Assembly: GCA_022566355.1 (NCBI GenBank)
Contig: JADFJB010000088.1
Location: 1-20,400, forward strand
Reading direction: 5' to 3'
DNA: 20,400 nucleotides
From: a candidate division KSB1 bacterium
GTDB taxonomy: Bacteria; Zhuqueibacterota; JdFR-76; DREG01
A model generated the notes under the pieces. The model ran no database searches, had not been told where the DNA came from, and was given only the letters and a program-made list of their open reading frames with translations. The position numbers were made by a program, and so were the translations under genes. This document shows, piece by piece, positions 3,657 through 20,400 of this stretch (position 1 is its first letter; every line of letters starts with the position of its first letter).

Positions 3657-4403
3657 ATGACCTTAAAAAAAACTATTTTTCAAATTCTTCCGTTGGTGCT
3701 GATTTTAACTGATCCAAATATTGTGTTACCCCAGGATGATTTTGGATTTCGTTTTGTTCGGGTCAAATATGATGATAACCAAAACAGGGGCGGCAGAGGT
3801 TGGGGGCGATATGGCCGGGGAGCATGGAGCACAGATTGGCCAACTTCAGATTATAACTTGCACGAAGCGATCGAGCGTACCACCGGCCTAACCTTAATGG
3901 GCGATCCTTTGGTGTTTACATTTCTGGATGAAGAGATTTTTGAGTACCCGGTGCTTTACCTTACCGAACCTGGCTTTTGGATGACCAATGAAGAAGAAGT
4001 TAAAAATATGCGAAAGTATTTCCTGCGCGGCGGCTTCTTAATCATCGATGATTTCCACGACTATGGCGGTTTTGGTTGGCAATGGTATAATATGTATAAC
4101 AATATCAAGCAGGTGTTCCCTGATAAAGAACCTGTATTATTGCCCAACGATCATCCGATTTGGTCGATTTATTATGACATTGATCCTGTTGAGGCTGCAT
4201 CAACCAAATGGGATTTTAGCAGATACGATGATGCCTATTTTGGTATCTTTGACGATGACGGACGTTTGATGATCGTGATTTGCTATAATCAGGATATTGG
4301 CGATGGTTGGGAGCATCCATTTGGCAGGCGTATTTTAGCTGAAGCTTCAACGGTTAGTTTTCAAATGGCCATTAACTTTATCATGTATGCTTTAACACAC
4401 TAG
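3657..4403 (+). CDS. DUF4159 family secreted protein A
   Basis: A 248-residue protein with a Sec-type signal peptide (MTLKKTIFQILPLVLILTD; likely cleavage near residue 26), so it is expected in the periplasm or at the envelope. The mature part fits DUF4159: FRFVRVKYDD, then DYNLHEAIERTTG, then a GATase/ThuA-like strand-turn YFLRGGFLIIDDF (121-133), and a conserved end with GDGWEHPFGRR. DUF4159 proteins are often found beside MoxR/vWA genes, but their biochemical role is unknown. An Arg/Gly-rich insert (about residues 42-56, NRGGRGWGRYGRG) lies between the first strand and the rest. A paralogue, about two-thirds identical by eye, lies at 7052-7789. Only four bases separate this gene from the next, so they are almost certainly co-transcribed. 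Confidence 0.9.
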   Translation: MTLKKTIFQILPLVLILTDPNIVLPQDDFGFRFVRVKYDDNQNRGGRGWGRYGRGAWSTDWPTSDYNLHEAIERTTGLTLMGDPLVFTFLDEEIFEYPVLYLTEPGFWMTNEEEVKNMRKYFLRGGFLIIDDFHDYGGFGWQWYNMYNNIKQVFPDKEPVLLPNDHPIWSIYYDIDPVEAASTKWDFSRYDDAYFGIFDDDGRLMIVICYNQDIGDGWEHPFGRRILAEASTVSFQMAINFIMYALTH

Positions 4404-4407
4404 TCAC

Positions 4408-7047
4408 ATGACCAAAAAAATCACACAATTTTTCTTCACAATTCTTATTAGCCTGTATGTCTGTGTCTTGGCATATGCCCAGGAATCCGATAATCAGTTT
4501 ACTATTGCCAATCAAGCCTTCCAAAGCGGCAAGTATTTAGATGCCCGTAATCTTTTTGAACCGCTAATAGAGACTACTGATGAAAACCATAGTGCTATCA
4601 TAAAAATCTATTTTGAAACCTATCTCAACCTCGGTGAATATGAGAATGGCTTAAATCGTGTTGAAGGATTATTAAATAATTCTCCGGAAGATGCATCCCT
4701 TCTTTACATAAAAGGACGCTTTTTAGTCGCTATTGGAAAGTTAAGTAAAGCGGAGCAGGTTTTCATTAATACTCAGAATATTGATGACGGATACTTGCCC
4801 AATTTATTGGAAATCGCAAATCTACTGGAAATTACAGGGAGAAAAAATCAGGCATACGGGTATTATCGAACGATCGCTTTGGAATATCGCCGGGGTCGAT
4901 TGAAAGATGCTCAATCTATTGCCATTGCCGGCAGAGCCTTCGCAAAGCTTGAGGATTTTCATGAAGCGAACCAGGTTTATAAATTGGCACACCAGGTGGA
5001 CCCTAAAGATATACAAAATTTAGCCTGGTGGGCCGAGCTGTTTGCATCAAAGTATAATACTGCCGATGCCAAGAGAACTTATGAAGAAGCGATTTCATTA
5101 AATCCTCACAACGCTGATTTGTATGTTGGATTTGCGCGATCCTCCCAAGGATTAACCATACAAGGGGAATTAGCCAATAAAGCGCTAAAAGAAAATCCGA
5201 ATCATATTGATGCGTTGAACCTGTTGGCGGAATTACAAATCCTGGATGCCGATTATGAAAAAGCGGAACAAACGCTTGCGGAAGCGCTTAAAATCAATCC
5301 GGTTTATGAGCCGTCGTTGGCGTATTTAGCTACAATATTTCATTTACAAGGTGATAAGTCCGGTTATTCGAAAATTGAAAACCAGGTCTTGGAAATAAAT
5401 CGCTATTGCAGTAATTTCTATACAATATTGGCAGAAAATTGTGTCCGTCGGTTTCGCTATAAAGATGTGGTGGAATTTTGCTTCAAAGCAATTTCGAAAG
5501 ATCAAAGAAATTGGCAAGCTTACGCATTAATCGGTGCGAATCTACTAAGGATTGGAGAAATTGACAATGCCCGCTATTATCTTGAGAGAGGTTTTAAAGG
5601 AGATCCTTTTAATGTGTTTGCACGGAATACACTGGAACTCCTGGACGAATATGCCAATTTTGAGAACCTTGAAAGCGAACATTTCAGCCTAATGATCCAT
5701 AAGTCTGAAAGCGATATCCTTGGCAAACCGATTCTCGCCTTCGCTGAAGAGTGTTTCGATTCATTGGCAAAAAGATATCCATACCAGGCAGAGAAGAAAA
5801 TTCGCATTGAAGCCTACAATGACCACGATGATTTTGCCGTGCGGATTAGCGGGCTACCCGGTATTAGTTTGTTGGGTGTTTGTTTTGGAGATGTATTGGC
5901 ATTGGATACACCCAGGGCACAGCCAAATAGTGAATATAATTGGGCCCGGACCCTCTGGCACGAACTGGCGCATGTGATGGCGCTGGGTTTATCGAATAAT
6001 AGGGTGCCAAGATGGTTCACTGAAGGATTGTCGGTTTATGAGGAAATGCGGGCTCGTAGATATTGGCACAGAAAAATGGATATGGAATTTTACTCGGCAA
6101 GGGATCAGGGTTTACTCCTGTCGTTGAGGGATATTAATGAAGGATTTACCAGGCCAAAATATCCTGAACAGATCATGCTGACCTATTATCAATCCGGGAA
6201 ATTCATCCAATATTTAACAAAGAGATACGGGTTCAAAGCGATTGTCGAGATGTTAGAGGGATTTGGGAACGGATACGACCTTGAGAAAACTTTTCAAATT
6301 GTCCTTAATTTGAATATAGATGAGGTCGAAAAATTACTCTGGCAGGACATTGAAGCTGAAAGAGAAATATTTGGTCCTGTATTTACAAACATACCACCGG
6401 TTATTAATTCTGTTGAAAAAGAAAAGTCACATTTCAAAAATTTATTTATAGAATCAAAAAATCCTTTTTTTGAAAATCTCGTAAAAGCTAATGAACTTGT
6501 AAAAGAAAACAAATATCAACAAGCTGAAGAAAAATTCTTAAAAGCGCTTGAGATTTATCCTTATTACACACGATCCGGCAATCCGTACCTGGGCTTGGCG
6601 CATATTTATCGTGAAGAAAGTGATAGTTCAAAGTTGCAAAGCATTCTAGAGAAGTATTTAACAGTATCAGAATTTGGCGCGAAGGAAGCAAGGGAGCTGG
6701 GCCACATATATGAATACCAGGGAAAGAATGAAAGCGCAAAATCTTACTATCTCCGCTCGATGCAGGTAGAACCGTATGATCTGAATACTCACATCCGTTT
6801 GGCCGATTTATTCAAAGAGTCACAAAACTTTCATACTGAGGCGCAAGAACGCAAGGCTATATTGGCGTTGGATCCACTTGACCGATCGAATGCATATTAT
6901 CAACTTGCATTGAGTTATTATAACTTCGGCAATACACTTGATGCAAAAAGACAAGTCTTAAAATCACTGGAATCGGCGCCTGGTTATCGCGATGCGCAGA
7001 AATTGCTTCTTAAATGTGTGGATAACTTAAATGAGAATATGCAGTAA
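4408..7047 (+). CDS. Secreted TPR protein with gluzincin metallopeptidase domain
   Basis: An 879-residue protein with a clear signal peptide (MTKKITQFFFTILISLYVCV, AYAQ cleavage near residue 25). Residues about 30-440 are a long run of TPR-like repeats. Residues about 450-690 form a peptidase MA-like domain with the zinc motif H518-E-L-A-H522 and the likely third ligand E539 in WFTEGLSVYEE, the HExxH-16-E spacing typical of gluzincins. Residues about 700-865 are further TPR repeats. All catalytic residues are present, so an active periplasmic metallopeptidase held in a TPR scaffold is expected; its substrate is unknown. It lies between two DUF4159 paralogues, four bases after the first and abutting or overlapping the second, which suggests they work together. 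HELAH plus the downstream Glu make the peptidase call firm; the family name is less certain. Confidence 0.9.
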   Translation: MTKKITQFFFTILISLYVCVLAYAQESDNQFTIANQAFQSGKYLDARNLFEPLIETTDENHSAIIKIYFETYLNLGEYENGLNRVEGLLNNSPEDASLLYIKGRFLVAIGKLSKAEQVFINTQNIDDGYLPNLLEIANLLEITGRKNQAYGYYRTIALEYRRGRLKDAQSIAIAGRAFAKLEDFHEANQVYKLAHQVDPKDIQNLAWWAELFASKYNTADAKRTYEEAISLNPHNADLYVGFARSSQGLTIQGELANKALKENPNHIDALNLLAELQILDADYEKAEQTLAEALKINPVYEPSLAYLATIFHLQGDKSGYSKIENQVLEINRYCSNFYTILAENCVRRFRYKDVVEFCFKAISKDQRNWQAYALIGANLLRIGEIDNARYYLERGFKGDPFNVFARNTLELLDEYANFENLESEHFSLMIHKSESDILGKPILAFAEECFDSLAKRYPYQAEKKIRIEAYNDHDDFAVRISGLPGISLLGVCFGDVLALDTPRAQPNSEYNWARTLWHELAHVMALGLSNNRVPRWFTEGLSVYEEMRARRYWHRKMDMEFYSARDQGLLLSLRDINEGFTRPKYPEQIMLTYYQSGKFIQYLTKRYGFKAIVEMLEGFGNGYDLEKTFQIVLNLNIDEVEKLLWQDIEAEREIFGPVFTNIPPVINSVEKEKSHFKNLFIESKNPFFENLVKANELVKENKYQQAEEKFLKALEIYPYYTRSGNPYLGLAHIYREESDSSKLQSILEKYLTVSEFGAKEARELGHIYEYQGKNESAKSYYLRSMQVEPYDLNTHIRLADLFKESQNFHTEAQERKAILALDPLDRSNAYYQLALSYYNFGNTLDAKRQVLKSLESAPGYRDAQKLLLKCVDNLNENMQ

Positions 7048-7051
7048 CAAG

Positions 7052-7789
7052 ATGAGGAAATTCATCCTGATCTTTTCAGTACCTCTATTTTATTTCCTGC
7101 TTCCGGAACAGGCGGCTGCTCAATATGATCATGGCTTTAGATTTATCCGTATAAAATATACCGATACACCCAGTGAATGGAGTGGTCGTGGATTTGGAAG
7201 GGGGCGTGGTGGCCGTGGTGGATTCTGGAGTCATGATTACCCAACTGCTGAATATAATTTACTGGAGGCTATTGAAAGAACAACAGGTTTACGGGTCAAT
7301 GACCAACCGCTCATTCTTACCTTAACAGATGAAAGAATTTTTGAATACCCGATCCTTTATTTGTGTGAACCCGGACACTGGGCCCTGGATGCTGAGGAAG
7401 CCAAGAATCTTCGAAAATATCTACATCGTGGCGGATTTATACTATTTGATGATTTTGCAGGCAGGGATTGGAATAATTTTTATTTCAATATTAAACAGGT
7501 TTTCCCGAATAAAGAGCCTGTAATGCTACAACCGGATCATGCTGTCTGGTCCATTTTTTACGATATCGATCCGATTGAAGCTGCTTCAGCAAAATGGGGA
7601 TTAAGTAGATACGACGACGAATATTACGGCATCTTTGACGATAAAGGTCGGTTGATGTGCATAATCTGCTATAACCAGGACATTGGAGACGGTTGGGAGC
7701 ATCCTTTTGGCCGGCGGGTCCTGGCAGAAGCTTCAACTGTTAGCTTTCAAATGGGAATCAATTTTATTATCTACGCATTGACACATTAA
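7052..7789 (+). CDS. DUF4159 family secreted protein B
   Basis: A 245-residue paralogue of the protein at 3657. The signal peptide is MRKFILIFSVPLFYFLL with an AAAQ cleavage site near residue 24. The start at 7052 is chosen because it gives a leader of the same length as the paralogue. An upstream in-frame ATG at 7031 would add seven residues and overlap the preceding gene by 17 bases. The mature protein has FRFIRIKYTD, an Arg/Gly-rich stretch (about residues 40-54), EYNLLEAIERTTG, the strand-turn YLHRGGFILFDDF (123-135), and a C-terminal 60 residues nearly identical to protein A. The two genes differ at many synonymous sites, so the duplication is old and selected rather than a recent copy. 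The function of DUF4159 is unknown. Confidence 0.9.
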   Translation: MRKFILIFSVPLFYFLLPEQAAAQYDHGFRFIRIKYTDTPSEWSGRGFGRGRGGRGGFWSHDYPTAEYNLLEAIERTTGLRVNDQPLILTLTDERIFEYPILYLCEPGHWALDAEEAKNLRKYLHRGGFILFDDFAGRDWNNFYFNIKQVFPNKEPVMLQPDHAVWSIFYDIDPIEAASAKWGLSRYDDEYYGIFDDKGRLMCIICYNQDIGDGWEHPFGRRVLAEASTVSFQMGINFIIYALTH

Positions 7790-7862
7790 AAGTACCTAAA
7801 GTGAAAGAAAACGCCTAACGTATTATAAGTTAAATCTATCTATATAAAGAAAGGGATATGAT

Positions 7863-8906
7863 TTGGAAAATTTGGAAACAGTTCAGGAAGTCCAGGGATC
7901 TGAAACCATAACTCAGGAAGCTTTTGAAAAATTACAAGAAGGTAAAAGCAAAATATTAGATCAATTGCGCCAGGTCATCATCGGACAGGATGAAGTGATA
8001 GAGCTTGTCTTGATCGCTTTGTTTGCCGGTGGCCATTGTCTGATCACCGGGGTACCGGGATTGGCGAAAACCCTATTGGTAAAATCCTTTGGGGAAATAT
8101 TGGATTTAACCTATAAACGAATTCAATTTACACCGGATTTAATGCCTGCAGATATTACCGGTATTGATGTTCTAGAAGAGGATACTTCGACCGGTAAACG
8201 GTCTATTAAGTTTGTTAAAGGTCCCATATTTGCGAATATCATTCTGGCTGATGAAATCAACCGAACACCGCCTAAAACCCAGGCTGCACTTTTGGAAGCC
8301 ATGCAGGAATACCAGGTAACTGCAGGTGGTGAACTCTTTGAACTGGAACGGCCATTTTTTGTAATGGCAACTCAAAATCCCATTGAGTTGGAAGGAACAT
8401 ATCCACTTCCTGAAGCCCAGCTGGATCGTTTTATGTTTAATATTATCATTGATTATCTTTCGGAAGATGATGAATTGAACGTGGCTTTACAGACGACTTC
8501 TCAGGATCAGGAACAACTCAAAACCGTATTAACCGGCAAGGATGTGTTGGGTTTCCAACATATTATCAAAAAGATATTTGTTCCTAATAATGTTGCTCAA
8601 TATGCTGTTAAGCTTGTGCGTAATTCCCGGCCAACCGAAAGCGGGGGACCGGAATTTGTTTCAAAATGGGTAAGTTGGGGCGCAGGGTTACGAGCCGTTC
8701 AATACTTGCTGCTTGGCGGTAAAGTTCGGGCTGTATTTCATGGGCGATATAATGTTGCCATCGAAGATATTAAAACGCTGGCAAAACCGGTTTTACGTCA
8801 CAGGATCATAACAAATTTCTATGCTGAATCGGAAAATATTGATTCGGATAAAGTCATCGAGATGCTTCTTGAAGAAGTTAGCGAACCCATATCAGGATTG
8901 GATTAA
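7863..8906 (+). CDS. MoxR-family AAA+ ATPase
   Basis: A 347-residue MoxR ATPase. The Walker A motif GVPGLAKT is at 63-70, Walker B LADE at 128-131 followed by INRTPPKTQ, sensor-1 ATQNP at 169-173, and the family signature LPEAQLDRF at 182-190. All ATPase motifs look intact. MoxR proteins form hexamers that work with vWA-domain partners as chaperones in the assembly or activation of protein complexes; here the partners are probably the DUF58 and BatA-like products downstream. It has no TM segment and is cytoplasmic. The start is TTG at 7863, supported by a GAAAGGG ribosome-binding site at 7849-7855. An ATG at 7858 is in another frame and soon meets a stop. Confidence 0.95.
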   Translation: MENLETVQEVQGSETITQEAFEKLQEGKSKILDQLRQVIIGQDEVIELVLIALFAGGHCLITGVPGLAKTLLVKSFGEILDLTYKRIQFTPDLMPADITGIDVLEEDTSTGKRSIKFVKGPIFANIILADEINRTPPKTQAALLEAMQEYQVTAGGELFELERPFFVMATQNPIELEGTYPLPEAQLDRFMFNIIIDYLSEDDELNVALQTTSQDQEQLKTVLTGKDVLGFQHIIKKIFVPNNVAQYAVKLVRNSRPTESGGPEFVSKWVSWGAGLRAVQYLLLGGKVRAVFHGRYNVAIEDIKTLAKPVLRHRIITNFYAESENIDSDKVIEMLLEEVSEPISGLD

Positions 8907-8952
8907 ATAGAAAACAAATGATTGAACAACGTGAGATCGACATAAGTGAATT

Positions 8953-9012
8953 CATGGTTCGATTCTGCTCACCATGGCTTAACTTCAACAGCCTGAATGG
9001 AGTCGAAGGCTG
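8953..9012. repeat. Paired REP-like hairpins, second copy
   Basis: Two palindromes lie in the gap between MoxR and DUF58. The first (8953-8976) has arms CATGG/CCATG around TTCGATTCTGCTCA. The second (8989-9012) has arms CAGCC/GGCTG around TGAATGGAGTCGAA. The cores match those at 871-944 while the arms differ completely yet stay self-complementary, so the stems have changed on both sides together. The two units are in the same order as at 871-944 and are 12 bases apart. Confidence 0.7.
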
Positions 9013-9066
9013 ATAATTGTGCATATTTTCCCTAAAATTTATTATGTCGAACTTATAAAAATATAG

Positions 9067-9171
9067 TTAACCTGGATAATTTCATGAATCAGCTTTTAAG
9101 CTTAAAGTTTCCTAATGTCATCCCGTCGTGACGGGATGACAGTGATAAGGTTTATGAATAGGTCAGGTTAA
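9067..9171. repeat. MITE-like palindromic element
   Basis: A stretch of about 105 bases is bounded by TTAACCTG (9067-9074) and its exact inverse CAGGTTAA (9164-9171), with imperfect inverted similarity continuing inward for about 20 bases (AATTTCATGAA against TTTATGAATA). Inside is a perfect 12-bp stem with a 2-base loop (9116-9141, TGTCATCCCGTC paired with GACGGGATGACA). No poly-T follows the hairpin. The element ends 9 bases before the DUF58 start, so it forms most of that gene's leader. It has no coding capacity. A small non-autonomous element is the best reading. Confidence 0.55.
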
Positions 9172-9180
9172 TTAAATATA

Positions 9181-10095
9181 ATGATGAGCGAAGTTAACCA
9201 GAAAAGTAGCCCGACACGATTAATAGATCCTAGTATTCTGTCAAGAATATCAAATTTGGATCTACTCGCTCGTGGAGTAGTCGAAGGATTCGTGGGTGGC
9301 CTGCATAAAAGTCCATACAAAGGCTTTAGTGTCGAATTTCTCGAATACAGGCCTTATTCTCCTGGTGACGATCCTATGAGGATTGACTGGAAGTTGTTTA
9401 TGCGTTCTGACAGATTGTACATAAAACAATTCGAGGATGAAACCAATACGAATTGCAGCATTTTGTTGGATACCAGTAAGTCTATGGATTATTCCTCGAC
9501 ACACATTTCAAAATTGCAATATAGTATTTATCTCGCAGCATCCCTTGCCTATTTTATGATTCGCCAGAGAGATAGCGCCGGCTTATGTCTTTTTGATCAC
9601 AAAATCAAAGAAAATATTCCGGCCAAAAGTGGTAAGGGCCACCTTCATACCCTTTTGAATATTTTAAATACAGTCCAGCCCGATGCCAGTACGAACATGA
9701 GTAAACCATTTCATGAATTAGCTGATAATTTGAAAAAGCGAGGTATCGTAATAATCATCTCTGACCTCCTCGATAGTCTCGATCATATCCTTGCAGGGTT
9801 AAAACATTTTCGCTTTAACGGCAATAATGTCATCGTCTTTCATATTATGGATCCGCTCGAATTGTCATTTGAATACGATGGTATTCTGGAATTAGAGGAT
9901 ATGGAAACCGGTGAAAAAATGGTTTTGGCAGCAGATCAAGCAAAAGAAACTTACCAACATAATTTGGATGAATTTAAATCATCATTAACTGTGAATTGCG
10001 GTTTACTCAATATTGATTATACGGTTTTGACCACCGATCAGCCGTTGGATCATGCACTTTTTAAATACTTGTCAAAAAGAAGTTCAATAAAATAA
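9181..10095 (+). CDS. DUF58 protein with vWA domain
   Basis: A 304-residue cytoplasmic protein without TM segments. The DUF58 signature EYRPYSPGDDPMRIDWK is at 55-71. A von Willebrand A-like domain follows, with the metal-binding motif D97-T-S-K-S101, a later Thr (in ASTNMSKPF) and Asp (in IIISDLLDS), so the metal site looks complete. DUF58 genes typically follow moxR, and their products are thought to be adaptors or substrates of the ATPase. Here it lies 274 bases after MoxR, the gap being filled by repeats, and 10 bases before the BatA-like gene. The start is the first of two ATGs (9181, 9184); the second is equally possible. Confidence 0.93.
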   Translation: MMSEVNQKSSPTRLIDPSILSRISNLDLLARGVVEGFVGGLHKSPYKGFSVEFLEYRPYSPGDDPMRIDWKLFMRSDRLYIKQFEDETNTNCSILLDTSKSMDYSSTHISKLQYSIYLAASLAYFMIRQRDSAGLCLFDHKIKENIPAKSGKGHLHTLLNILNTVQPDASTNMSKPFHELADNLKKRGIVIIISDLLDSLDHILAGLKHFRFNGNNVIVFHIMDPLELSFEYDGILELEDMETGEKMVLAADQAKETYQHNLDEFKSSLTVNCGLLNIDYTVLTTDQPLDHALFKYLSKRSSIK

Positions 10096-10105
10096 GTGAG
10101 TAACC

Positions 10106-12139
10106 TTGTCATTCATTAATCCAATTTTTCTTTTTGCAGCTGCAACCGCATTGCTTCCCATTCTTTATCATTTGATAAGGAATAAACGAGCTCGAAAAGT
10201 AAAGTTTAGTTCCCTGTTGTTTTTTAAAGCAACTCCCAAAGAAGTCATTCGAAGAAGGAGGTTGCAGGATTTATTATTATTGATTATCCGATGCGCTATC
10301 CTTGGCATTCTGGCTCTTGTTTTTGCTCGACCCTTTATCCCGAAAGAGGCTATCCCATTCATCTCTCAAATTCAAAATAAATCAGTTGTTTTTCTAGTTG
10401 ATAATTCTTACAGCATGCAATATGCCAATCTATTCGAACAAGCAAAGCAAGAAATAGAAGACAGGTTGAATGAAGCAAATGAAGCAGATGAATTTTCAAT
10501 TGTAGTTTTTTCTGATGAACCCCGGCAATTATCAGAGCTGTCCACAGATGTGTCGATGCATAAAAATATAGTAAAGAGTTCACTCAAGCCGAGTAATAGA
10601 ACTACAGATTTCTACAAGCCGGTTAGGCTGGCGGAAGATATCCTTAAGGATGCTAAACATAAGGACAAACAAATCATTTTGATTTCAGATTTGCAGAAAA
10701 ACGGTTTAAGCAATCAATTCGAAAATTGGAATATTGATCCTGCAATCCATTTTATCCCGATCCAAATCGGTGGAGAATACCCCGTTAATGCATACATAGA
10801 AAAATTTACCCTGAACAAAAAGCGACGTGGAGAGAAAGTTGCTACCCGGTATGGACTTCAGATTGTAATTCCGGAAGAAGAAACCTCGAACAAAGTTACA
10901 CTAATAGTCAATGGGAAACAGGTAGATGCTCAAAAGACCGGTGTTGGAATTTCAAGCCAGGTTTACTTTCAACAGGAAAACTTGAGAAAAGGGTTATACC
11001 AGGGGAATTTAAGATTGAATGAAGATAAGCTTCCAATTGACAATGTTTATTATTTTGGTTTTGAGGTTGACGAAAGACCCTCTATTTTATGTATTGACAA
11101 TTCTCCGCAATATTCTAATAGCAGTGCTTTTTATCTTGAGAAATGTATAAATATGGGTGATCAGTCATTATACCGGTTTTCGAGAGGGAGGACAAGCAAA
11201 TTAAGTACAAGACAGTTAGTTGGTATTCAAGTTCTTTTTCTTTCAAATGTAAGATCGCTCTCAAAAACACAGTTGAGTACATTAGAAAATTATGTGCAAA
11301 AAGGGGGTACATTGATAATCTCTTTTGGAGATATTGTTAACCAAAGTAGGTTTTCAAACAACCTAAAGGATTTGGGTGTTGGAGTCATAACAGAGAAAGT
11401 CAGGGTTCGCAAGATTCAATCTGCAAGCGCAATCATAGGCGAAGTTGATTTCAAACATCCTGTCTTTTCGGTTTTTGCGCAATCCAAAACCGGTGATATT
11501 TTTAATCCGAAGTTTCAACAATATTTTAAAATTACTCCGGATTCCAACGCAATGGTAATCGGAAGGTATGATACCGGTGACCCGTTTTTGATCGAACGAA
11601 TTTTAGGTGATGGAAAAATAATCGTATTTACTTCGACATTTAACACAGAGTGGGGTGATTTTCCCGTTAATGAAATTTATTTACCTTTTGTTTATCAATT
11701 GGTAAAATATGCCACCTTATCATCCGCAAAGAGAAATTCATTCTTTGTTGCCGATGCTATTCTCCTGGAAGGAAATAGTGGAGACGTTTGGGAAATTAGT
11801 GCACCTGGAGACAAAATATTCAAAGTTGAAATTGATCAATCCGGGTTAGGTTATTTTCGCGATACGGAAATCCCGGGAAATTATCAGGCAGTTCTAAATA
11901 GCCAGAAATATTATTTTTCAGTCAATGTTAATGCTAGTGAATCGGATTTATCAGTGCGAGATCCTGAAGAAGTTTACGCGGCTGTTACAGGTCCTAGGAC
12001 AGCGGAACAGGAAATCCAAACAGCCGATCTTACGGGTATGAACCAGGACGAGAAAAACCAAAAAATGTGGCGATACATACTGTTTTTTATTGTTGTATTG
12101 TTTTTACTTGAAACCTTTTTGGCGAATCGCCGGGCTTGA
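10106..12139 (+). CDS. BatA-like membrane protein with vWA domain
   Basis: A 677-residue protein. Its N-terminus, MSFINPIFLFAAATALLPIL, is the double-transmembrane BatA N-terminal type (helices about 3-24 and 54-76, with a basic cytoplasmic loop). A vWA domain follows with D99-N-S-Y-S103, Thr in NRTTDFYKP and Asp in LISDLQKNG, so the metal site is complete. The central region carries a GATase-like strand-turn YVQKGGTLIISFGD (396-409). A final TM helix is near 652-671 (YILFFIVVLFLLETFLANRR), so most of the protein should be periplasmic. The start is TTG at 10106, chosen because family members begin M-S-F-x-N-P exactly there; no strong ribosome-binding site is seen. BatA-type proteins are linked to MoxR in the Bacteroides aerotolerance loci; the function here is inferred from that. 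Confidence 0.9.
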   Translation: MSFINPIFLFAAATALLPILYHLIRNKRARKVKFSSLLFFKATPKEVIRRRRLQDLLLLIIRCAILGILALVFARPFIPKEAIPFISQIQNKSVVFLVDNSYSMQYANLFEQAKQEIEDRLNEANEADEFSIVVFSDEPRQLSELSTDVSMHKNIVKSSLKPSNRTTDFYKPVRLAEDILKDAKHKDKQIILISDLQKNGLSNQFENWNIDPAIHFIPIQIGGEYPVNAYIEKFTLNKKRRGEKVATRYGLQIVIPEEETSNKVTLIVNGKQVDAQKTGVGISSQVYFQQENLRKGLYQGNLRLNEDKLPIDNVYYFGFEVDERPSILCIDNSPQYSNSSAFYLEKCINMGDQSLYRFSRGRTSKLSTRQLVGIQVLFLSNVRSLSKTQLSTLENYVQKGGTLIISFGDIVNQSRFSNNLKDLGVGVITEKVRVRKIQSASAIIGEVDFKHPVFSVFAQSKTGDIFNPKFQQYFKITPDSNAMVIGRYDTGDPFLIERILGDGKIIVFTSTFNTEWGDFPVNEIYLPFVYQLVKYATLSSAKRNSFFVADAILLEGNSGDVWEISAPGDKIFKVEIDQSGLGYFRDTEIPGNYQAVLNSQKYYFSVNVNASESDLSVRDPEEVYAAVTGPRTAEQEIQTADLTGMNQDEKNQKMWRYILFFIVVLFLLETFLANRRA

Positions 12140-12194
12140 ACAAATGAAAATAATAATCAATCATTTTTGTCATAAACAATAGAAGGTTTTTGTT

Positions 12195-15100
12195 ATGCGA
12201 ACTTCGCCCAAGAAAATCGACCAGTTAATCAAAGAAATAAAAAAACGATTAAAGCTCAGAACGCTGCAGCATGGGATTTCCATAACTCTGCTAACTTTTG
12301 TCGGGTTTGCTTGTTTTTATTTTATTGGTTTAGCCTCTTTTGAGATTTCATCTCTTATTCAAACTTTGATCATAACCATATTTGTTGTAGCGCTGGTTAT
12401 TGAAATAGGATGGTATATTATCCGACCTGCATTTTCTACCATCGAAGATCACAAGATTGCGTTGTTTATTGAAGAGAGATTTCCGGATATGGAGGATCGA
12501 ATCAACAGCGCCGTAGAACTTAAAGGCCATCCTGTAGAAGGAAAAGAAGAGAACTTGATTATTGACAGGCTTATAGATGATGCAACACTCAAAATTAAAG
12601 AAATTCGATTCACAACAATTATAGATCGTAAGAAGGAAAGAAAACTTGCCTTTGTTGCCTATGGTTTATTTTTCCTCTTTCTATTAATAACTTTTTCCTA
12701 TATGGAAGACATACGTCGAATTTCATCCAACATGGAATTCTCTTTAAATCCGAAAACCCACTTTGGACAGGAAATTATCAACATTACACCGGGCAATATT
12801 CAAATTGAAAAGGGAGAGTCGGTTGACATAATTGCTGAACTTAAAGCCGCAACAGATGAGGAACTATTCTTACATTACAAAATGGCTGATGATGTTTGGG
12901 CAAAAGAAAAAATGAATAAAAGTATAGACGGGAAAAAGTCTATTTTTCGATTGATCAGTGTTCAAGAACCTGCAGTGTATTATGTGGAGCTTCAGGAAAT
13001 CCGTTCCACAGAATTCAATATTGATATCTATGAGTTTCCAAAAGTCACTCAAATCGACTTAAAATACCATTATCCCGCTTACACAGGTTTGCCGGATCGG
13101 GTCGAGGTAAATACCGGAATCATCCGCGGATTACAAGGATCGCAAGTAACATTAACTATCAAAACTTCAGGTGCGCCAATTATAGGGGAGTTGGTGCTGA
13201 ATGACGTTGAGACTATTAAACTGACTTCCCAGGTGAACGGTATATTCCAGGGTAAAATGAACCTGCGTGAATCCGGGGTATATCATATCAAATTGGCAGA
13301 TGGACAGGAGAAGAATAATAAATTCCCGATCGAATATCAAATTACTGCTGTTGAAGATGCATTGCCGATTATTTCGATAAACGATCCACAAAAGGACGTT
13401 CGTGTTAATGCTGTTGAGGAAGTGTTAATCGATGTTTCCATTTCCGATGATTTTGGCGTGAAAAGTGCGAAAATCTGGTTTTCAGTGAATGGCGAAGAGG
13501 AAGAGTCCGTCCTGTTATTTAGGGCAAATAAGTCACGAGAAACAGAAATAACAGGTGATCACATTTTCTATTTAGAAGATTATTTCCTTGAGCCTGGAGA
13601 CGTTATTTCTTATTACGTAGAAGCGGAAGATAATTTTCTTGAAACGGAAGCCATTCAATCTGATATGTATTTTATCGAAGTAATTCCCTTTGATTCAAAA
13701 TTTACCCAGCTCAATAATCGGGGTGGCGGAGGGGGAGGTGGTCAACAGGGAAGCCAAATGGTGATCAATCAACAAACCATCATTAGTGCAACCTGGAATC
13801 TGTTACGCAAAAAAAATGAGATGCAACAAAACGAGTTTGATGAGTCTGTGGATGCAATTAAACAATCCCAATCAAATCTAAAAGATAATATCAATGAGCG
13901 GATTAACACGACCGCATTCTCCGTAGAAATGGCAGTCGATGATGAGAACAAAGAGATTGCAGATTTACTACGCAAATCCGTTGAACAGATGGATCAAGCA
14001 GTAAAAGTTCTGTCTGAAAAAGATTTGAAGAAGGCTTTAACACCGGAGCGTAAGGCGCTCACATTTTTATTACGTGCGGATGCTAAAAATAAAGAGAAAC
14101 TCATCCAGAGAGGACAAATGGCAGGAGGCGGGGGTGGTGGTAATAGTGAAGATCGAATGACAGAATTAATGGATCTGGAGCTTGATATTTCGAAGGATAA
14201 ATATGAAATCCAGCAACAAAACCAGCAGCAACAGAATCAACAGCTTGATGACACTTTGCGGAAGCTTAGAGAACTGGCAAAGAAGCAGCAATTGCTAGCG
14301 CAGCAAAGCCGGGAAATTCTTCAAGAACAGAATAACAGGAGAGAGCTGGATCGCCTGAAAAGGGACCAGGAACAATTACGTAATGATGCCGAAAATCTTG
14401 CCAGCCAGTTTCGGGAGCAGGCCAGAAATAATGACAAAATTTCCCGGCAAATGCAAAATCGTATTGATGAAATCACAAAGAATTTACGCAATGCTGAGCA
14501 GGATTTGAAAAATAATAATTTTCAGCAAGCTATGGCGCGCCAGAGCCAGGCTATTAATGAGCTGAACAGGCTTCAGAATGATTTGAGACTGTCGCTGTCA
14601 GATGATGTTCGGGATATGCTGGATGAATTTACTGATAATTTCAGAGAGTTTGATGAGCAAGAACGTCAATTAGCGAATGATATCAGCGAAGAGTATAAAA
14701 GAAATCAAGAAAATGAGGGGATTGTTAATACCAACCGGTTAAAAAACCTGGTTCAGAAAAGAGAGGAATTGATCGGCAAACTGAATAGTCTGGAAGATCA
14801 GGCTCGTGCAATAGAAGAATCATCCCGGCAAGAAAACCCGAAAATTGCCACCAGTTTAAGAAATATCCAAAATACCATACAACGTGAAAATATTGAAAAA
14901 AATATGCGTGGTTCAAAAGAGCTGCTGGAAAGAGGTTGGTTAACCTATGCGAATATGCTTGAAGAGGAAATCAAAGCGGGAATCAGCATGGTGGAAGACC
15001 AGGTCAAACAATTGCAAGGTGGGTTGCCTGTAACCGAAGAGCAGAGGTTGAATCGATCACTTGAAGATACAAGGGATTTGATGCGACGTTTTCAAGAGAC

Positions 15101-15563
15101 CATGGCACAAAATCAAAGACAATCCCAGGAGCAGACTCAAGGGCAGCCACAACCGGGAAATAATAATCAACAAGAAGCTCAAGAAGGTGATCAGTCGCGA
15201 GGAGGAAATAGAGGACGCGCTGGCCGCAACGAAGCTGCACGTATGAGGAACCTTTTTGAACGAGCCCGGGAAACCTTGGAGCGAATGGAACGAGAATATC
15301 AAGATGACACTGATTTTCGCCAGCAACTGAACAATACCCGCAGAATGTTTTCACAGGGTAATGTTGGCACGTTACTCGGAGGAAAGGCAAAAGAATATTT
15401 TAAGAACAAAGTTTATGATCCCTTGTCACAATTGGAGACCTATTTGTTAAATCGCCTGGATCGAATTGAGTTAGAGAAAAAACTGTACAGTTTGCGGAAA
15501 GAAGAAGTTCCGCCTGAATACAAAAAAATGGTTGATAAGTATTTTGAGTCAATTTCAAAGTGA
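12195..15563 (+). CDS. DUF4175-like large membrane protein with coiled coils
   Basis: A 1122-residue protein, by resemblance and position a DUF4175-type member of MoxR/vWA loci; I am moderately sure of the family. TM helices are at about 27-48, 52-76 and 149-170. Residues about 190-500 are beta-rich, with segments like the Ig/CARDB type (KYHYPAYTGLPDRVEV). A seven-Gly linker (510-516) and a six-Gly linker (644-649) divide the chain. Residues about 660-980 are heptad-rich coiled coil with Gln tracts (QQQNQQQQNQQ). Residues about 985-1030 are a disordered Gln/Gly/Arg segment, and a helical C-terminus follows. AGAAGG upstream of the ATG is a plausible ribosome-binding site. With its long coiled coil outside the membrane it could act as a structural spacer or scaffold for the vWA proteins; this is inference. 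Confidence 0.85.
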   Translation: MRTSPKKIDQLIKEIKKRLKLRTLQHGISITLLTFVGFACFYFIGLASFEISSLIQTLIITIFVVALVIEIGWYIIRPAFSTIEDHKIALFIEERFPDMEDRINSAVELKGHPVEGKEENLIIDRLIDDATLKIKEIRFTTIIDRKKERKLAFVAYGLFFLFLLITFSYMEDIRRISSNMEFSLNPKTHFGQEIINITPGNIQIEKGESVDIIAELKAATDEELFLHYKMADDVWAKEKMNKSIDGKKSIFRLISVQEPAVYYVELQEIRSTEFNIDIYEFPKVTQIDLKYHYPAYTGLPDRVEVNTGIIRGLQGSQVTLTIKTSGAPIIGELVLNDVETIKLTSQVNGIFQGKMNLRESGVYHIKLADGQEKNNKFPIEYQITAVEDALPIISINDPQKDVRVNAVEEVLIDVSISDDFGVKSAKIWFSVNGEEEESVLLFRANKSRETEITGDHIFYLEDYFLEPGDVISYYVEAEDNFLETEAIQSDMYFIEVIPFDSKFTQLNNRGGGGGGGQQGSQMVINQQTIISATWNLLRKKNEMQQNEFDESVDAIKQSQSNLKDNINERINTTAFSVEMAVDDENKEIADLLRKSVEQMDQAVKVLSEKDLKKALTPERKALTFLLRADAKNKEKLIQRGQMAGGGGGGNSEDRMTELMDLELDISKDKYEIQQQNQQQQNQQLDDTLRKLRELAKKQQLLAQQSREILQEQNNRRELDRLKRDQEQLRNDAENLASQFREQARNNDKISRQMQNRIDEITKNLRNAEQDLKNNNFQQAMARQSQAINELNRLQNDLRLSLSDDVRDMLDEFTDNFREFDEQERQLANDISEEYKRNQENEGIVNTNRLKNLVQKREELIGKLNSLEDQARAIEESSRQENPKIATSLRNIQNTIQRENIEKNMRGSKELLERGWLTYANMLEEEIKAGISMVEDQVKQLQGGLPVTEEQRLNRSLEDTRDLMRRFQETMAQNQRQSQEQTQGQPQPGNNNQQEAQEGDQSRGGNRGRAGRNEAARMRNLFERARETLERMEREYQDDTDFRQQLNNTRRMFSQGNVGTLLGGKAKEYFKNKVYDPLSQLETYLLNRLDRIELEKKLYSLRKEEVPPEYKKMVDKYFESISK

Positions 15564-15576
15564 TTTTGATTATTTC

Positions 15577-15653
15577 ACCACAAAGGCACAGAGACACAGA
15601 GGATCAAATTAACAGAGATGTCTGCAAGCATTTTTTCTCTGTGCCTCTGTGGT
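15577..15653. repeat. CACAGAG-type inverted repeat
   Basis: ACCACAAAGGCACAGAG at 15577-15593 pairs with CTCTGTGCCTCTGTGGT at 15637-15653, 16 of 17 positions, around a 43-base loop. It fills most of the 119-bp gap between the DUF4175-like and vWA/GATase-like genes. Closely similar CACAGAG-rich inverted repeats are familiar dispersed intergenic sequences in many bacterial genomes. A short T-run (15659-15663) follows the stem, so weak termination or attenuation is possible, but the long loop argues against a classical terminator. Confidence 0.65.
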
Positions 15654-15682
15654 AAGGCTTTTTAAAAAAATAACATTATAAC

Positions 15683-17998
15683 ATGCCGGATACCTGGATC
15701 GAAATTCTTCTAAAATTCAAGCCCATTCAACTTGAAGAGGGTAGTATCGTTTTTCAAACGGTGAACTCGCCGTTCTTGTTCTGGGGACTATTGACATTTT
15801 TGATCCTTGGCCTTATTACTTTTTATTACCTGTCAAGAATCTATTCCTCAAATCGATTTAAAGCGATTTCATTGGGTATTCGAATCGTTGCTTTATGTTT
15901 GGTGTTTCTGCCGTTTTTTGAACCTTCTTTGCTAAGCCCGGATGTTATTCCTAATGAGAATTTTATTGCCGTGATGGTGGATCATTCTGCCAGTATGGGC
16001 ATACCGGATGGTTATTTTGGCGATAGCCGTTATGAGGATGTCAGAAAAATTCTTTATCACGAAGATAACGAAATACTGTCGGAATTGGAGCGAGATTTCA
16101 AAATCAGATATTATGCTTTCAGTGGTAGTGCTACACGAATAGATAGTTTATCAAATCTAACACCACAAGGAATTGAAACCAATTTAACAGCCTCGTTTCA
16201 GCGGGTTTTGTCCGATTTCAAAGGATTGCCTTTGGCCGGTATCGTTCTGTTTACCGATGGCGGTGATAACAGCTTAGAGAATCCCAGACGAATTGCGGAA
16301 GAGCTAAAATTTTCAAACACACCGCTTCACATTGTGGGTTTGGGCAAAGAACATTTAGAACAGGATCGGGAGCTGCTGGAGGTGAAAACGAATAGAGGTA
16401 TCCAACCGGGTTCAGGCGCCGAAATTGAAGTAAAAGTCAGGAGTTGGATCGAAGAAAGTGAACCAGCGGTATTCAATATTTATAGCGGTGAAAAACTGGT
16501 ATTTACAAAGCAGGTGAATCTAAAAGGAAATGGCAAAATCGATCACTTCTCATTCTTTTTCGATCCGGAAGAGGAAGAATCGGTTGAATACACGGTGCAA
16601 ATCTCTCCGCTGCCAAATGAGGTGAATACAGAGAATAATTCATTGAATATTTTAATTGATTCAAAAAAAGATACCATCCGGGTTTTGTACTTTGAAGGAC
16701 ATCTTCGCACGGAATTTAAATTTATAAAAAGAGCCCTGGAGGAAGATCAAATTGTAGATTTTACCTCAATATCCCAAACTGGAACAGGGAAATATTATCG
16801 TCAGGGCATTAAAAATCCGGAAGAACTTAAGGGTGGATTCCCGAGCGATGAAGAAGAATTATATCAATATAAAGCGATCATTTTCGGCGACATCGATGCA
16901 AGCTCTTTCTCCATCGAACAGCTTGAAATGATTGAAAAATTTGTCCGGAAACGCGGGGGAGGATTCCTGATGCTGGGAGGAAAAAATTCCTTTGCCGAAG
17001 GTGATTATTGGAATACACCTATTGCAGATATTTTACCGGTAGAGATTGATCCGCAACGAAAAACGGTCATAAGTCCCAATTTTAATGATCCAAATATTCC
17101 GAAGGAGGAGCGTGGTTTTCAATTTGTTCCAACTCAGGAAGGATTGGAAAATCCAATTCTAAAGCTTGTACCTGATCCGATAAAAAATAGGCGGGTTTGG
17201 AACACGATGCCAAGGCTGTTCAGCATCAATTATTTTGGTGCGAAAAAACCAGCTGCTACAATACTTGCAGAAAAGCCCCAGGATCGGTTTGGGAATTCAG
17301 AACCATTATTTGTAGTGCAGCGCTATGGCAGGGGCAGGACAGCCGTGCTTGCTACCGCCAGCACCTGGAGATGGCAGATGTTATTGGAAGCAAACGATAC
17401 CAAACATGAGCGATTCTGGCGGCAATTTATTCGTTGGCTAGGAGACGGCGCACCGAATCATGTAAGTTTAAGCCTTGCCCATGATCGCGTGGAACCAAAT
17501 GTCGAAATTCCGATTCGCGTAAGTTTATTTGACGAAAACTTTGATCCGTTATCGGAAGTAGAAGTAACCGGCATAATGACTGATCCAAATAAAAATCTTA
17601 GCCAGATGCAATTTTTACCCGAGCTGAATGAAGAAGGTGAGTATACCTTTAACTTTGTCCCGAAGACTACGGGTATGTATTCCATCGAAGTAGAATCGAA
17701 ATTAAATGGCAAGATAATTGGCAAACAATATCAGAGTATCATTAGCCGGCCATCGAAAAAAGAGTTTTACAATGCCACGCTAAAAAAAGGATTTTTGAAG
17801 AATATGGCTGCCCTGGCGAATGGATATTATTATGAGCCCGCAGAAGTTGGCAATATTCCAGTAAATCTGAAATCCAGGAAATCCAGCACATCGATCATAC
17901 GTTCCGAATATATTTGGGATATGCCACTATTGTTTTTATTGATTGTAATCCTGCTTTCCGCGGAATGGATTTATAGGAGATATAAAGGATTACCTTAA
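15683..17998 (+). CDS. Membrane vWA protein with GATase-like domain
   Basis: A 771-residue protein with two N-terminal TM helices (about 30-50 and 62-80). A vWA domain follows with metal motif D100-H-S-A-S104, Thr in ETNLTASF and Asp in VLFTDGGDNS, so the site is complete. A class I glutamine amidotransferase-like domain comes next: YKAIIFGDIDAS, then FVRKRGGGFLMLGGKNSF (420-437) and a conserved YGRGRTAVLATASTWRWQM stretch near 550-568. Such domains in this family usually lack amidotransferase chemistry. A beta-sandwich-like region follows, and a last TM helix is near 744-762. The large middle should be periplasmic. It is a second, more elaborate relative of the BatA-like protein upstream and probably shares the MoxR machinery. 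The start ATG at 15683 has no clear ribosome-binding site. Confidence 0.9.
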   Translation: MPDTWIEILLKFKPIQLEEGSIVFQTVNSPFLFWGLLTFLILGLITFYYLSRIYSSNRFKAISLGIRIVALCLVFLPFFEPSLLSPDVIPNENFIAVMVDHSASMGIPDGYFGDSRYEDVRKILYHEDNEILSELERDFKIRYYAFSGSATRIDSLSNLTPQGIETNLTASFQRVLSDFKGLPLAGIVLFTDGGDNSLENPRRIAEELKFSNTPLHIVGLGKEHLEQDRELLEVKTNRGIQPGSGAEIEVKVRSWIEESEPAVFNIYSGEKLVFTKQVNLKGNGKIDHFSFFFDPEEEESVEYTVQISPLPNEVNTENNSLNILIDSKKDTIRVLYFEGHLRTEFKFIKRALEEDQIVDFTSISQTGTGKYYRQGIKNPEELKGGFPSDEEELYQYKAIIFGDIDASSFSIEQLEMIEKFVRKRGGGFLMLGGKNSFAEGDYWNTPIADILPVEIDPQRKTVISPNFNDPNIPKEERGFQFVPTQEGLENPILKLVPDPIKNRRVWNTMPRLFSINYFGAKKPAATILAEKPQDRFGNSEPLFVVQRYGRGRTAVLATASTWRWQMLLEANDTKHERFWRQFIRWLGDGAPNHVSLSLAHDRVEPNVEIPIRVSLFDENFDPLSEVEVTGIMTDPNKNLSQMQFLPELNEEGEYTFNFVPKTTGMYSIEVESKLNGKIIGKQYQSIISRPSKKEFYNATLKKGFLKNMAALANGYYYEPAEVGNIPVNLKSRKSSTSIIRSEYIWDMPLLFLLIVILLSAEWIYRRYKGLP

Positions 17999-18000
17999 GA

Positions 18001-18042
18001 GTAAAAAGTAAAAAGTAAAAAGGAAAAAGGAAAAAGGAAAAT
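18001..18042. repeat. 7-bp tandem repeat (GTAAAAA/GGAAAAA)
   Basis: Six 7-base units run in tandem directly after the stop of the vWA/GATase-like gene: three GTAAAAA followed by two GGAAAAA and one GGAAAAT. The switch from GT to GG halfway suggests two rounds of slippage expansion. It lies in a gap, so a length change would not alter a protein. Confidence 0.85.
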
Positions 18043-18217
18043 TAAGACAGGATTAACAAGATAAAATAAGAATTGCCAAATGAAATTTCAAACGCCGAAA
18101 CATGTCATTCAGAAGGAATCTATTTTGACCTATGTAAAGCGCTGGTTTTTCCTGAATGCCAGTGTCAGCGATTTTTATTCCGTGATAAATCCGCAATCCA
18201 TGGCTAAAATATTGCTT

Positions 18218-19270
18218 ATGAAACCTCCAACAAAAACTCAATTACCTGCTAAGTTAGTGTTAATACTTGTTTTTACTTGCATTTCTTTGGTATCAACAAC
18301 TCAACCTATCCATGCCCAAATAAACCAGCAACGTTATGCCTTACTCATCGCAGGAATCGGTGGCAGCAAAGAATATGAAGAAAAATTTCATGCTTATCTA
18401 TTCGATACCAGGAAAGCCTTGGTCGATCGATTCCAATTTTCGGAAGCAAATATAATTGTACTGGCCGCCTCTCGTGCGGATGGTGAAGATTTTATCGATG
18501 ACATTTCCAATGCTGAAAATATCAAATCCCAATTCACGACTCTTTCTTCTACAATTACACCGAATGATGATTTATACATTATCCTTTTTGGCCACGGCAG
18601 TTACAATGGCAAAAATGCAGTGCTCAATATCCCGCGACGGGATTTGAAAGACATCGATTATGCGGATCTGGTCAAGACTATTAACGCCAAGAAAATCATT
18701 TTCATCAATACCGCCAGTTGCAGCGGCCCGTTTGTGAAATCTTTGAGCGGCGCAAACAGAATCATCATCTCAGCCACCAAAAGCGGCAGGGAGCGCAATG
18801 AAACCTTATTCCCGCAATATTTGATCGAAGCCATGAATAACCCCGGCTCGGATCTGGATAAAGATGGCAATCTCGACATCGCCGAGATTTTTCTTTCTGC
18901 TTCCGAATTAACCCAGAGATGGTATGCAGATAACAACCATATCGCCACAGAACATGCCTTGCTGGACGATACCGGCGACGGCGTTGGTTACCGCGGCGAT
19001 GACCTCATGGCCCAGGGTGAGGGCATTCTCGCCAGCCAAACCTATCTAAAACGCGAACAAATCCTTCTGTTTACTGCGACTGGAATTTCTGATACCGTTT
19101 TGGTTAAGCTGGTGCAAGACCAGGATCAAGTCGAAGAAGAAATCTCCTTGCTAAAAGTGAACAAAACCAATTATTCAGAAGATGAATATTATGGTATGCT
19201 GGAGCCTCTATTTATTCGTTTGGCGATTATTAATGTTCGATTGGATGAGTTGAAGGGTGGGGGGAAATAA
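18218..19270 (+). CDS. Secreted caspase/legumain-like cysteine peptidase (clan CD)
   Basis: Translated from 18218, the protein is 350 residues, with a signal peptide ending PIHAQ near residue 34. The peptidase core starts at QRYALLIAGIGG. Caspase-fold features follow: LYIILFGHGSYNG with the catalytic His at 126, and INTASCSGPFVKSLSG with the catalytic Cys at 168, then an ISATKSGRERNETLFP strand. The H-G-S and A-S-C-S-G pattern fits clan CD peptidases (C13 legumain or C14 caspase type); which one is uncertain. An Asp-rich DLDKDGNLDIAEIF loop (about 211-224) resembles an EF-hand-like calcium site. The frame is open back to an ATG at 18080, but 18080-18217 looks like dispersed intergenic repeat sequence and would bury the signal peptide, so 18218 (or the ATG at 18200) is preferred. 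It is co-directional with the MoxR/vWA block, about 220 bases after it. Confidence 0.85.
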   Translation: MKPPTKTQLPAKLVLILVFTCISLVSTTQPIHAQINQQRYALLIAGIGGSKEYEEKFHAYLFDTRKALVDRFQFSEANIIVLAASRADGEDFIDDISNAENIKSQFTTLSSTITPNDDLYIILFGHGSYNGKNAVLNIPRRDLKDIDYADLVKTINAKKIIFINTASCSGPFVKSLSGANRIIISATKSGRERNETLFPQYLIEAMNNPGSDLDKDGNLDIAEIFLSASELTQRWYADNNHIATEHALLDDTGDGVGYRGDDLMAQGEGILASQTYLKREQILLFTATGISDTVLVKLVQDQDQVEEEISLLKVNKTNYSEDEYYGMLEPLFIRLAIINVRLDELKGGGK

Positions 19271-19635: not shown

Positions 19636-20400
19636 ATGTTTTTAATAAAGCGCGTGAAATTTATTAACATTAGAGGATTTAAAGAACTAATTATTGACTT
19701 TAATTCAAACGAAAATAATATAGTTAATAATAAGTTGATAATTGGCAAGAATGGTACGTGCAAAACAACTATTCTGAGATGCTTGGCCATTGGATTATGT
19801 GATCAAGCTGATGGGAACGGTCTCTTAGCAGAGAATTTTGGTGAGCTAATTTTAGAAGATAAAAAGGAGGGCTGGATATACATAGATTTATTTGATCAAA
19901 AAAATCCTTTGAATAAAATAAAAATCACTACACAAATAAAAAAGATTGAGGGGAAGGAAGAAGTAGGTGAAAAAACACAAATAAATGGTGCCATATTTGT
20001 CTGCGGTTATGGAGCAGCAAGAGCCCTTGAAGGAGCCCCTCAAGTTAGACGCTATCGAATAGCCGATTCAGTTTATTCTTTATTTCGATATGATGCCGAC
20101 TTTTGGCCCAGAGAATTAGTAATAAGACGCTTAAAAGATTACCTTGGATCTAGTTTTTATGCAAGCACCATTAGAAATATAAAGAAAATCATGGGATTAG
20201 CTCCAATGGATAAGATTTACATAGAAAAGGGAGGTGGGGTTTATATATCTGGACCTAAGATCGGGAAAAAAATTCCTATTGAAGGTTGGGCTGATGGATT
20301 CCAAATGACACTTTTGTGGATACTTGATTTATTTGGTTGGGCACTTATAGCACAAAATCTATCAAATGACGGTCAAATTTCCGGAATTCTTTTGGTCGAT
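19636..20400 (+). CDS. AAA ATPase, RecF/SMC-like type (3' partial)
   Basis: The frame from ATG 19636 is open for 255 codons to the window end. The N-terminus MFLIKRVKFINIRGFKELII is the typical opening of AAA_15/AAA_23/AAA_21 ATPases, with the P-loop at 37-45 reading G-K-N-G-T-C-K-T-T. The position before the Lys, normally Gly, is Cys. Near residues 147-153 there is a CGYGAAR motif, and the segment EGWADGFQMTLLWILDLFGW near 221-240 corresponds to the signature region before Walker B. The window stops at GILLVD, which would be the Walker B strand. An AGGA (19625-19628) is a plausible ribosome-binding site. Proteins of this type occur in DNA repair and in many anti-phage systems with a nuclease partner; the partner would be outside the window. 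The role is unknown. Confidence 0.85.
   Translation, partial: MFLIKRVKFINIRGFKELIIDFNSNENNIVNNKLIIGKNGTCKTTILRCLAIGLCDQADGNGLLAENFGELILEDKKEGWIYIDLFDQKNPLNKIKITTQIKKIEGKEEVGEKTQINGAIFVCGYGAARALEGAPQVRRYRIADSVYSLFRYDADFWPRELVIRRLKDYLGSSFYASTIRNIKKIMGLAPMDKIYIEKGGGVYISGPKIGKKIPIEGWADGFQMTLLWILDLFGWALIAQNLSNDGQISGILLVD

Follow-up and report, generated by a model that had tools for sequence, protein, structure and literature searches.

Loci that pair a MoxR-type AAA+ ATPase with VWA proteins are widespread, and the function of most of them is unknown. In the NorQD, CoxDE and RavA-ViaA systems, the ATPase works with a single VWA partner and its client is known, and the known MoxR/VWA pairs are usually encoded next to the gene of that client. 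The NorQ/NorD pair provides a view of such machinery at work, in which the MoxR ring can twist and stretch its VWA partner (PMC13036017). Two further parallels, both drawn from published descriptions rather than from sequence comparison, concern the bacterial envelope. In Rhizobium leguminosarum, the cmdA-D genes (RL3499-RL3502) form a conserved operon that, in the available parts of the reports, resembles the MoxR/DUF58/VWA genes of Borrelia, Bacteroides and Leptospira (PMC5700661; PMC5118466), and its mutants show defects of envelope and shape (PMC5700661). For CenR, the essential envelope regulator of Rhodobacter, binding sites lie at both a MoxR gene and a TIGR02302 gene (PMC9275681). DUF4175/TIGR02302 comes up in three of the 5.39 million papers searched, outside which most subscription papers fell, and DUF4159 in none of them. 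TIGR02302 is taken here to be the same family as DUF4175, and the cmdA-D operon presumably also holds DUF4159 and GATase-VWA parts.

The window analysed here is an entire contig of 20.4 kb from a genome of 4.6 Mb that is 98.5% complete. Nine genes, every one on the + strand, occupy positions 3657-19270, exactly where an earlier note on this DNA had placed them, and Pfam confirms the family that the note had named for each of the nine proteins. The nine-gene set recurs, with its form unchanged, across six or more bacterial phyla. The reading preferred here, to which we give a probability of roughly 55%, is that these genes constitute one co-selected module whose products make an ATP-driven, trans-envelope protein-remodelling machine for the maturation or quality control of envelope proteins. 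In the window, the gene order is DUF4159, TPR-gluzincin, DUF4159, MoxR, DUF58, BatA-like VWA, DUF4175-like, VWA/GATase-like and legumain-like, with the following features:

3657..4403, + strand: DUF4159 protein a, predicted to be secreted (Pfam PF13709, 3.5e-43; hydrophobic N-terminus)
4408..7047, + strand: periplasmic TPR-gluzincin, as predicted (Pfam TPRs and Peptidase_MA_2, 1.1e-13, above the cut-off)
7031..7789, + strand: DUF4159 protein b, predicted to be secreted (Pfam PF13709, 2.1e-46; hydrophobic N-terminus)
7863..8906, + strand: MoxR AAA+ ATPase with a TTG start (Pfam AAA_3, 1.9e-61; Walker A/B intact)
8907..9180: MoxR-DUF58 gap of 274 bp that contains a perfect palindrome of 24 bp (9117-9140)
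9181..10095, + strand: DUF58 protein, a cytoplasmic VWA protein with the MIDAS motif DxSxS (Pfam PF01882, 4.7e-47)
10106..12139, + strand: BatA-like membrane VWA protein with a C-terminal GATase1-like region (Pfam BatA, VWA_2 and GATase1_like; three TM segments)
12195..15563, + strand: DUF4175-like membrane protein (Pfam PF13779, 3.1e-9; three N-terminal TM segments)
15683..17998, + strand: membrane VWA/GATase1-like protein (Pfam GATase1_like, 8.7e-14; three TM segments)
18221..19270 (ORF opens at 18080), + strand: secreted protein of legumain/metacaspase fold, probably a pseudopeptidase (Pfam Peptidase_C13, 9.7e-6; AlphaFold model)

Upstream of the module, a Ku-like DNA end-binding protein (1-855) and a GGDEF-like protein (2155-3315) were recognised by eye. 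At the other end of the window (19636-20400) lies a PtuA-like AAA ATPase (PADLOC, 1.3e-20), ended by the contig edge, that could belong to an anti-phage system. A different contig of the same genome (G000:C84; L193, 14457-17123) carries a truncated DUF4159 gene with an internal stop and then, where the contig stops, MoxR and DUF58 genes; this may be a second copy of a related locus, either degraded or cut.

The domain assignments are accompanied by strong conservation of functional motifs. The two DUF4159 proteins score 147.9 and 158.5 bits against a Pfam cut-off of 25.9, and the family profile matches the solved structure 4i66. The Walker A/B motifs of MoxR are conserved in approximately 100% of 85 homologues, the MIDAS of DUF58 in 100% of 72, and the DxSxS and DG motifs of the VWA/GATase protein in 98% of 55; the VWA domain of this last protein (15683-17998) falls below the Pfam cut-off, yet DxSxS and TDG are kept in it, and the MIDAS of all three VWA proteins is at or near 100% conservation. 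The locus contains a MoxR-type AAA+ protein with Walker A/B motifs linked to a MIDAS-bearing DUF58 protein, and the combination of MoxR, DUF58 and BatA is of a known kind, as the earlier note had recognised for the core. Topology and signal peptides were judged from a hydropathy scan, in which the gluzincin and the legumain-like protein share the hydrophobic N-terminus of both DUF4159 proteins, and the BatA-like, DUF4175-like and VWA/GATase proteins have three TM segments each. By the positive-inside rule, the bulk of these three membrane proteins would be periplasmic; the VWA domain of the BatA-like protein is predicted to lie on that side, and the long C-terminal region of the DUF4175-like protein is predicted to be a periplasmic coiled coil.

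The spacing of the genes gives some indication of how they may be transcribed. Between DUF4159a and the gluzincin there are 4 bp, the gluzincin and DUF4159b genes overlap by 17 bp, and the largest intergenic space of the module is the 274 bp from MoxR to DUF58, the palindrome of which occurs in two copies genome-wide. The module of a Rhodothermales genome lies in two pieces, gluzincin-DUF4159-MoxR (L088) and DUF58-BatA-DUF4175-VWA/GATase-legumain-like (L210), that are split at the same MoxR/DUF58 boundary. Together, the gap and the split suggest two transcription units, a point against the preferred reading.

The coupling of these genes, which the earlier note had drawn from order and strand only, is strengthened by a comparison of neighbourhoods, in which the members are found together across phyla. 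Among 119 relatives searched for the gluzincin domain and the legumain-like protein, 25 gave a strong gluzincin-domain match and 20 a legumain-like match, all 20 of the latter being inside the 25. The five gluzincin genomes without a legumain-like match are each less than 84% complete, and all 19 gluzincin genomes that are at least 89% complete carry the legumain-like gene too. In families f10, f12 and f16, 12 related genomes carry the entire set on a single contig, in the nearly fixed order gluzincin-DUF4159-DUF4159-MoxR-DUF58-BatA-DUF4175-VWA/GATase-legumain-like, from which the window and G001, a member of its family, depart by the placement of one DUF4159 gene before the gluzincin. Genus g29 retains the legumain-like gene, relocated to a different contig.

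When named genomes were scanned with the gluzincin alignment, at least 344 relatives came up, and the best 80 of these, which were kept, span Acidobacteriota, Gemmatimonadota, Rhodothermota/Bacteroidota, KSB1/Calditrichota, Latescibacterota, Zixibacteria and MAGs titled Gammaproteobacteria, the phylum names being those of record titles, some of which are probably wrong. The usual order in Acidobacteriota and Gemmatimonadota, DUF4159-VWA/GATase-legumain-like-gluzincin-DUF4159-MoxR-DUF58-BatA-DUF4175, is a circular permutation of that in the 12 related genomes. A Zixibacteria locus (L112, 18532-20463) also encodes an M61-type gluzincin with a PDZ domain some 6 kb downstream of the gluzincin. Relatives in which the peptidases are absent or unlinked, which the earlier note had held would speak against the coupling, were sought. 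Thirty genomes have no intact legumain-like gene beside the gluzincin (none, a fragment or a contig end), and in 28 of the 30 the gene is found elsewhere in the genome, one of the 28 (G146) having a partial match only.

The loci of these comparisons had been picked by their gluzincin; searches of Acidobacteriota were run independently of that choice. In a sample of 197 genomes (90% completeness requested; best few candidates per genome scored), the gluzincin is present in 51, strong matches to the legumain-like profile fall in the identical 51, with weak partial matches near 1e-11 in two further genomes, and matches to the VWA/GATase profile at E <1e-140 fall in the identical 51 once more, outside which there are one distant match (G330, 2.9e-63) and weak generic ones. 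Two random sets of this size would coincide exactly with a probability of about 10^-48, a figure that kinship among the genomes makes less extreme. The all-or-none pattern of gluzincin, legumain-like and VWA/GATase genes in Acidobacteriota is clear. Hitchhiking of the peptidases was considered and is rejected because the genes co-occur even where they are unlinked. More divergent loci of other phyla (G112 and G095) have the arrangement DUF4175-gluzincin-MoxR-DUF58-BatA-DUF4159-VWA/GATase; their gluzincin is shorter, and the legumain-like gene is missing from them. The link between gluzincin and MoxR therefore looks older than the legumain-like part, and the divergent form (L206 and L207) may reflect an earlier stage of the module.

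The earlier note spoke of two different peptidases, and here the evidence leads elsewhere, with a catalytic site kept in only one of them. The gluzincin has the zinc motif HELAH at residues 518-522 and a downstream Glu ligand, Glu539, as expected of clan MA (PF13485), and HExxH...EG is intact in 102 of 102 homologues. In its AlphaFold model (pLDDT 94), helical-repeat (TPR) arrays flank the peptidase domain on both sides; the assignment of the peptidase-domain fold itself rests on sequence, since the Foldseek matches listed for the whole model are TPR proteins. On these motifs, the gluzincin is the one member that keeps its catalytic site, and it is a predicted metallopeptidase. In the gluzincin tree, the window copy groups with SM23_31/CSMAG/Rhodothermota, apart from f10, f12 and f16 of the same phylum, for which horizontal transfer and an ancient split are equally possible explanations.

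The legumain-like protein more likely starts at 18221, directly before the signal peptide, than at 18080, from which its residues are numbered here. The earlier note had called it a secreted caspase-like peptidase, and the fold is as proposed: its AlphaFold model (pLDDT 92) matches legumain with Z 22.7 and an rmsd of 2.3 Å over 203 residues and metacaspase-4 with Z 21.8, which places it in the legumain/caspase fold of clan CD (Peptidase C13). A phmmer search of PDB with the single sequence gave no matches. The catalytic dyad of clan CD is incomplete, in that the His (His172) is invariant in 92 of 92 homologues and the Cys is absent from all of them. In an HMM alignment to wild-type metacaspase-4, the catalytic Cys of the latter aligns to window residue 213, at which the 92 homologues have Ser (71), Ala (7), Pro (7), Thr (2), Asn (2), Gly (2) or Glu (1). 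An equal-length match to Pfam C13 agrees with this residue if the His-Cys spacing of legumain, which we take to be 41, is applied. The window does have a cysteine at 214, a residue that is Cys in 5 of the 92 homologues and Ala in 70, and its occurrence requires at least three separate changes on the tree; Cys214 was considered as a legumain-type nucleophile and set aside, the metacaspase-4 alignment placing the Cys at 213. The protein is probably a pseudopeptidase, because the catalytic position is never Cys and Cys214 is rare. The AAA+, MIDAS and zinc motifs of the module are nearly invariant, whereas the legumain Cys position drifts. A loop near residues 256-269, DLDKDGNLDIAE, resembles an EF-hand loop; its D258 is invariant in the 92 homologues and E269 in the first 19 aligned, and Pfam EF-hand_5 gives weak matches in two family members. 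The resemblance suggests that the protein may bind Ca2+.

An envelope role for the module is suggested by its parts, most of which are membrane proteins or secreted, by the ECF sigma context, by a SurA-linked paralogous trio and by the Rhizobium and Rhodobacter literature. Ten loci from families f12 and f16 (L049, L051, L052, L054, L055, L057, L059, L063, L065 and L066; domains checked on L065) have an ECF sigma factor, a zf-HC2 anti-sigma factor and a conserved protein that lacks a Pfam match ahead of the gluzincin; the sigma/anti-sigma pair is limited to some lineages and is absent upstream of the module in the window, which speaks against the reading. The f10 loci and some f16 loci have a PDZ protein gene divergently upstream. 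The genome of the window also has a paralogous DUF4159-DUF4175-TPR trio that follows genes for Mfd and SurA-type PPIases (G000:C2:58000-77999, L194; also L197-L200), an arrangement kept in families f1, f4, f10 and f16, and after the trio comes a highly conserved 447-aa protein without Pfam match that is 66-74% identical across families. This paralogous locus has neither MoxR nor HExxH, which counts against using its context for the module. A DUF4159 locus found throughout the phylum was also considered as a peptidase-less core module and rejected, as it has no MoxR, DUF58 or VWA gene alongside in the KSB1 genomes examined; the 'gluzincin' matches at this locus are to TPRs alone. The envelope machine for maturation or quality control that the earlier note had proposed thus gains support from genomic context and the literature, and stands as plausible rather than demonstrated; a point against it is that the locus has no client protein linked to it.

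If the products of the module do assemble physically, they would be distributed over three compartments. In the cytosol, the MoxR ring would act on the DUF58 protein as its VWA co-chaperone; the inner membrane would hold the two VWA/GATase-like proteins and the DUF4175 protein, with their bulk in the periplasm; and the periplasm would contain the two DUF4159 proteins, the catalytic TPR-gluzincin and the legumain-fold pseudopeptidase. Conformational work by MoxR and DUF58, relayed outward by the membrane VWA proteins, would present or remodel envelope proteins as the putative substrates, and the gluzincin would trim or degrade those presented. The pseudopeptidase could serve as a non-catalytic adaptor or regulator, perhaps a Ca2+-dependent one. 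A bolder and rather unlikely version, offered tentatively, is that of a previously undescribed ATP-powered envelope protease, in which the MoxR ring would gate the periplasmic TPR-gluzincin through the VWA proteins and a dedicated, Ca2+-binding pseudo-legumain would be an obligate regulatory or substrate-binding subunit.

Other explanations differ in what they take the ATPase to be working for. A dedicated maturation chaperone of the NorQD/CoxDE type would insert a metal cofactor into, or assemble, one envelope enzyme, with the gluzincin removing a propeptide last. Pairs of known function do work in this way, for example NorQ/NorD in metal insertion (PMC13036017), and a gluzincin in single copy within a gene set that is all-or-none would suit one dedicated task; however, no recurrent client gene was found near the module loci, and four secreted parts are much for cofactor insertion, so this explanation is judged unlikely, if still a serious contender. 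It is quite improbable that the locus is a Bat operon (Bacteroides aerotolerance) carrying accessory genes and acting in oxidative stress: a BatD match is absent by Pfam among the nine proteins, and the DUF4159, DUF4175, GATase-VWA, gluzincin and legumain-like parts lie outside the Bat gene sets in the available part of the published account (PMC5700661), even though MoxR, DUF58 and BatA-like proteins are held in common.

A MoxR-vWA conflict system, acting in defence with peptidase effectors, draws its appeal from ternary systems that likewise combine MoxR, vWA and often inactive caspase-like domains (PMC7159879). It is very improbable here, as Pfam finds no VMAP, iSTAND, FtsH or beta-propeller third component among the nine module proteins, PADLOC models do not match the six that were tested, the parts are for the most part secreted or held in the membrane, and the genes form a fixed set, with no swapping of effectors. 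The legumain-like protein might instead be an active protease that uses Cys214 in the window, or Ser213, which would be compatible with an envelope machine and would let the two peptidases of the earlier note stand in this lineage. The invariance of His172 fits such activity, as does the sharing of Cys214 by the window and its nearest relative (G119), but the next relative (G121) has Leu at 214, where Ala prevails, and the aligned catalytic position is without Cys throughout; activity is accordingly held to be improbable.

The locus offers a testable handle on MoxR/VWA loci in general, namely a conserved protease with a near-obligate pseudoprotease partner that is all-or-none in the sampled genomes. 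Should the energy of cytosolic ATP indeed reach periplasmic proteolysis, the module would show how some bacteria power protein quality control in an ATP-free compartment. In the literature searched, nothing relevant was found on MoxR together with a gluzincin or legumain, an earlier description in subscription papers being possible, and no functional description of the nine-gene set was found.

Comparison with described systems brings out both what is shared and what sets the module apart. The NorQD, CoxDE and RavA-ViaA systems, like the module, use a MoxR ATPase and a VWA co-chaperone for conformational work, whereas the module has three VWA proteins together with periplasmic proteolytic parts. 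The cmdA-D operon, compared here by description and not by sequence, is not reported with a TPR-gluzincin or legumain-like gene in the available parts of its publications. With the Bat operons of Bacteroides, Leptospira and Borrelia, as far as the available text describes them, the module has in common MoxR, DUF58 and a BatA-type membrane VWA protein (PMC5700661); in place of BatD it has DUF4159, DUF4175, gluzincin and pseudo-legumain parts. The MoxR-vWA ternary conflict systems (Kaur et al., 2020, PMC7159879) resemble it in joining MoxR and vWA to caspase-like domains that are often inactive, but the module is without their defining third components, is mostly membrane-bound or secreted, and is a fixed set. 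With legumain and metacaspase of clan CD, the legumain-like protein shares the fold and the catalytic His, and differs from them in the catalytic Cys, missing in 92 of 92 homologues.
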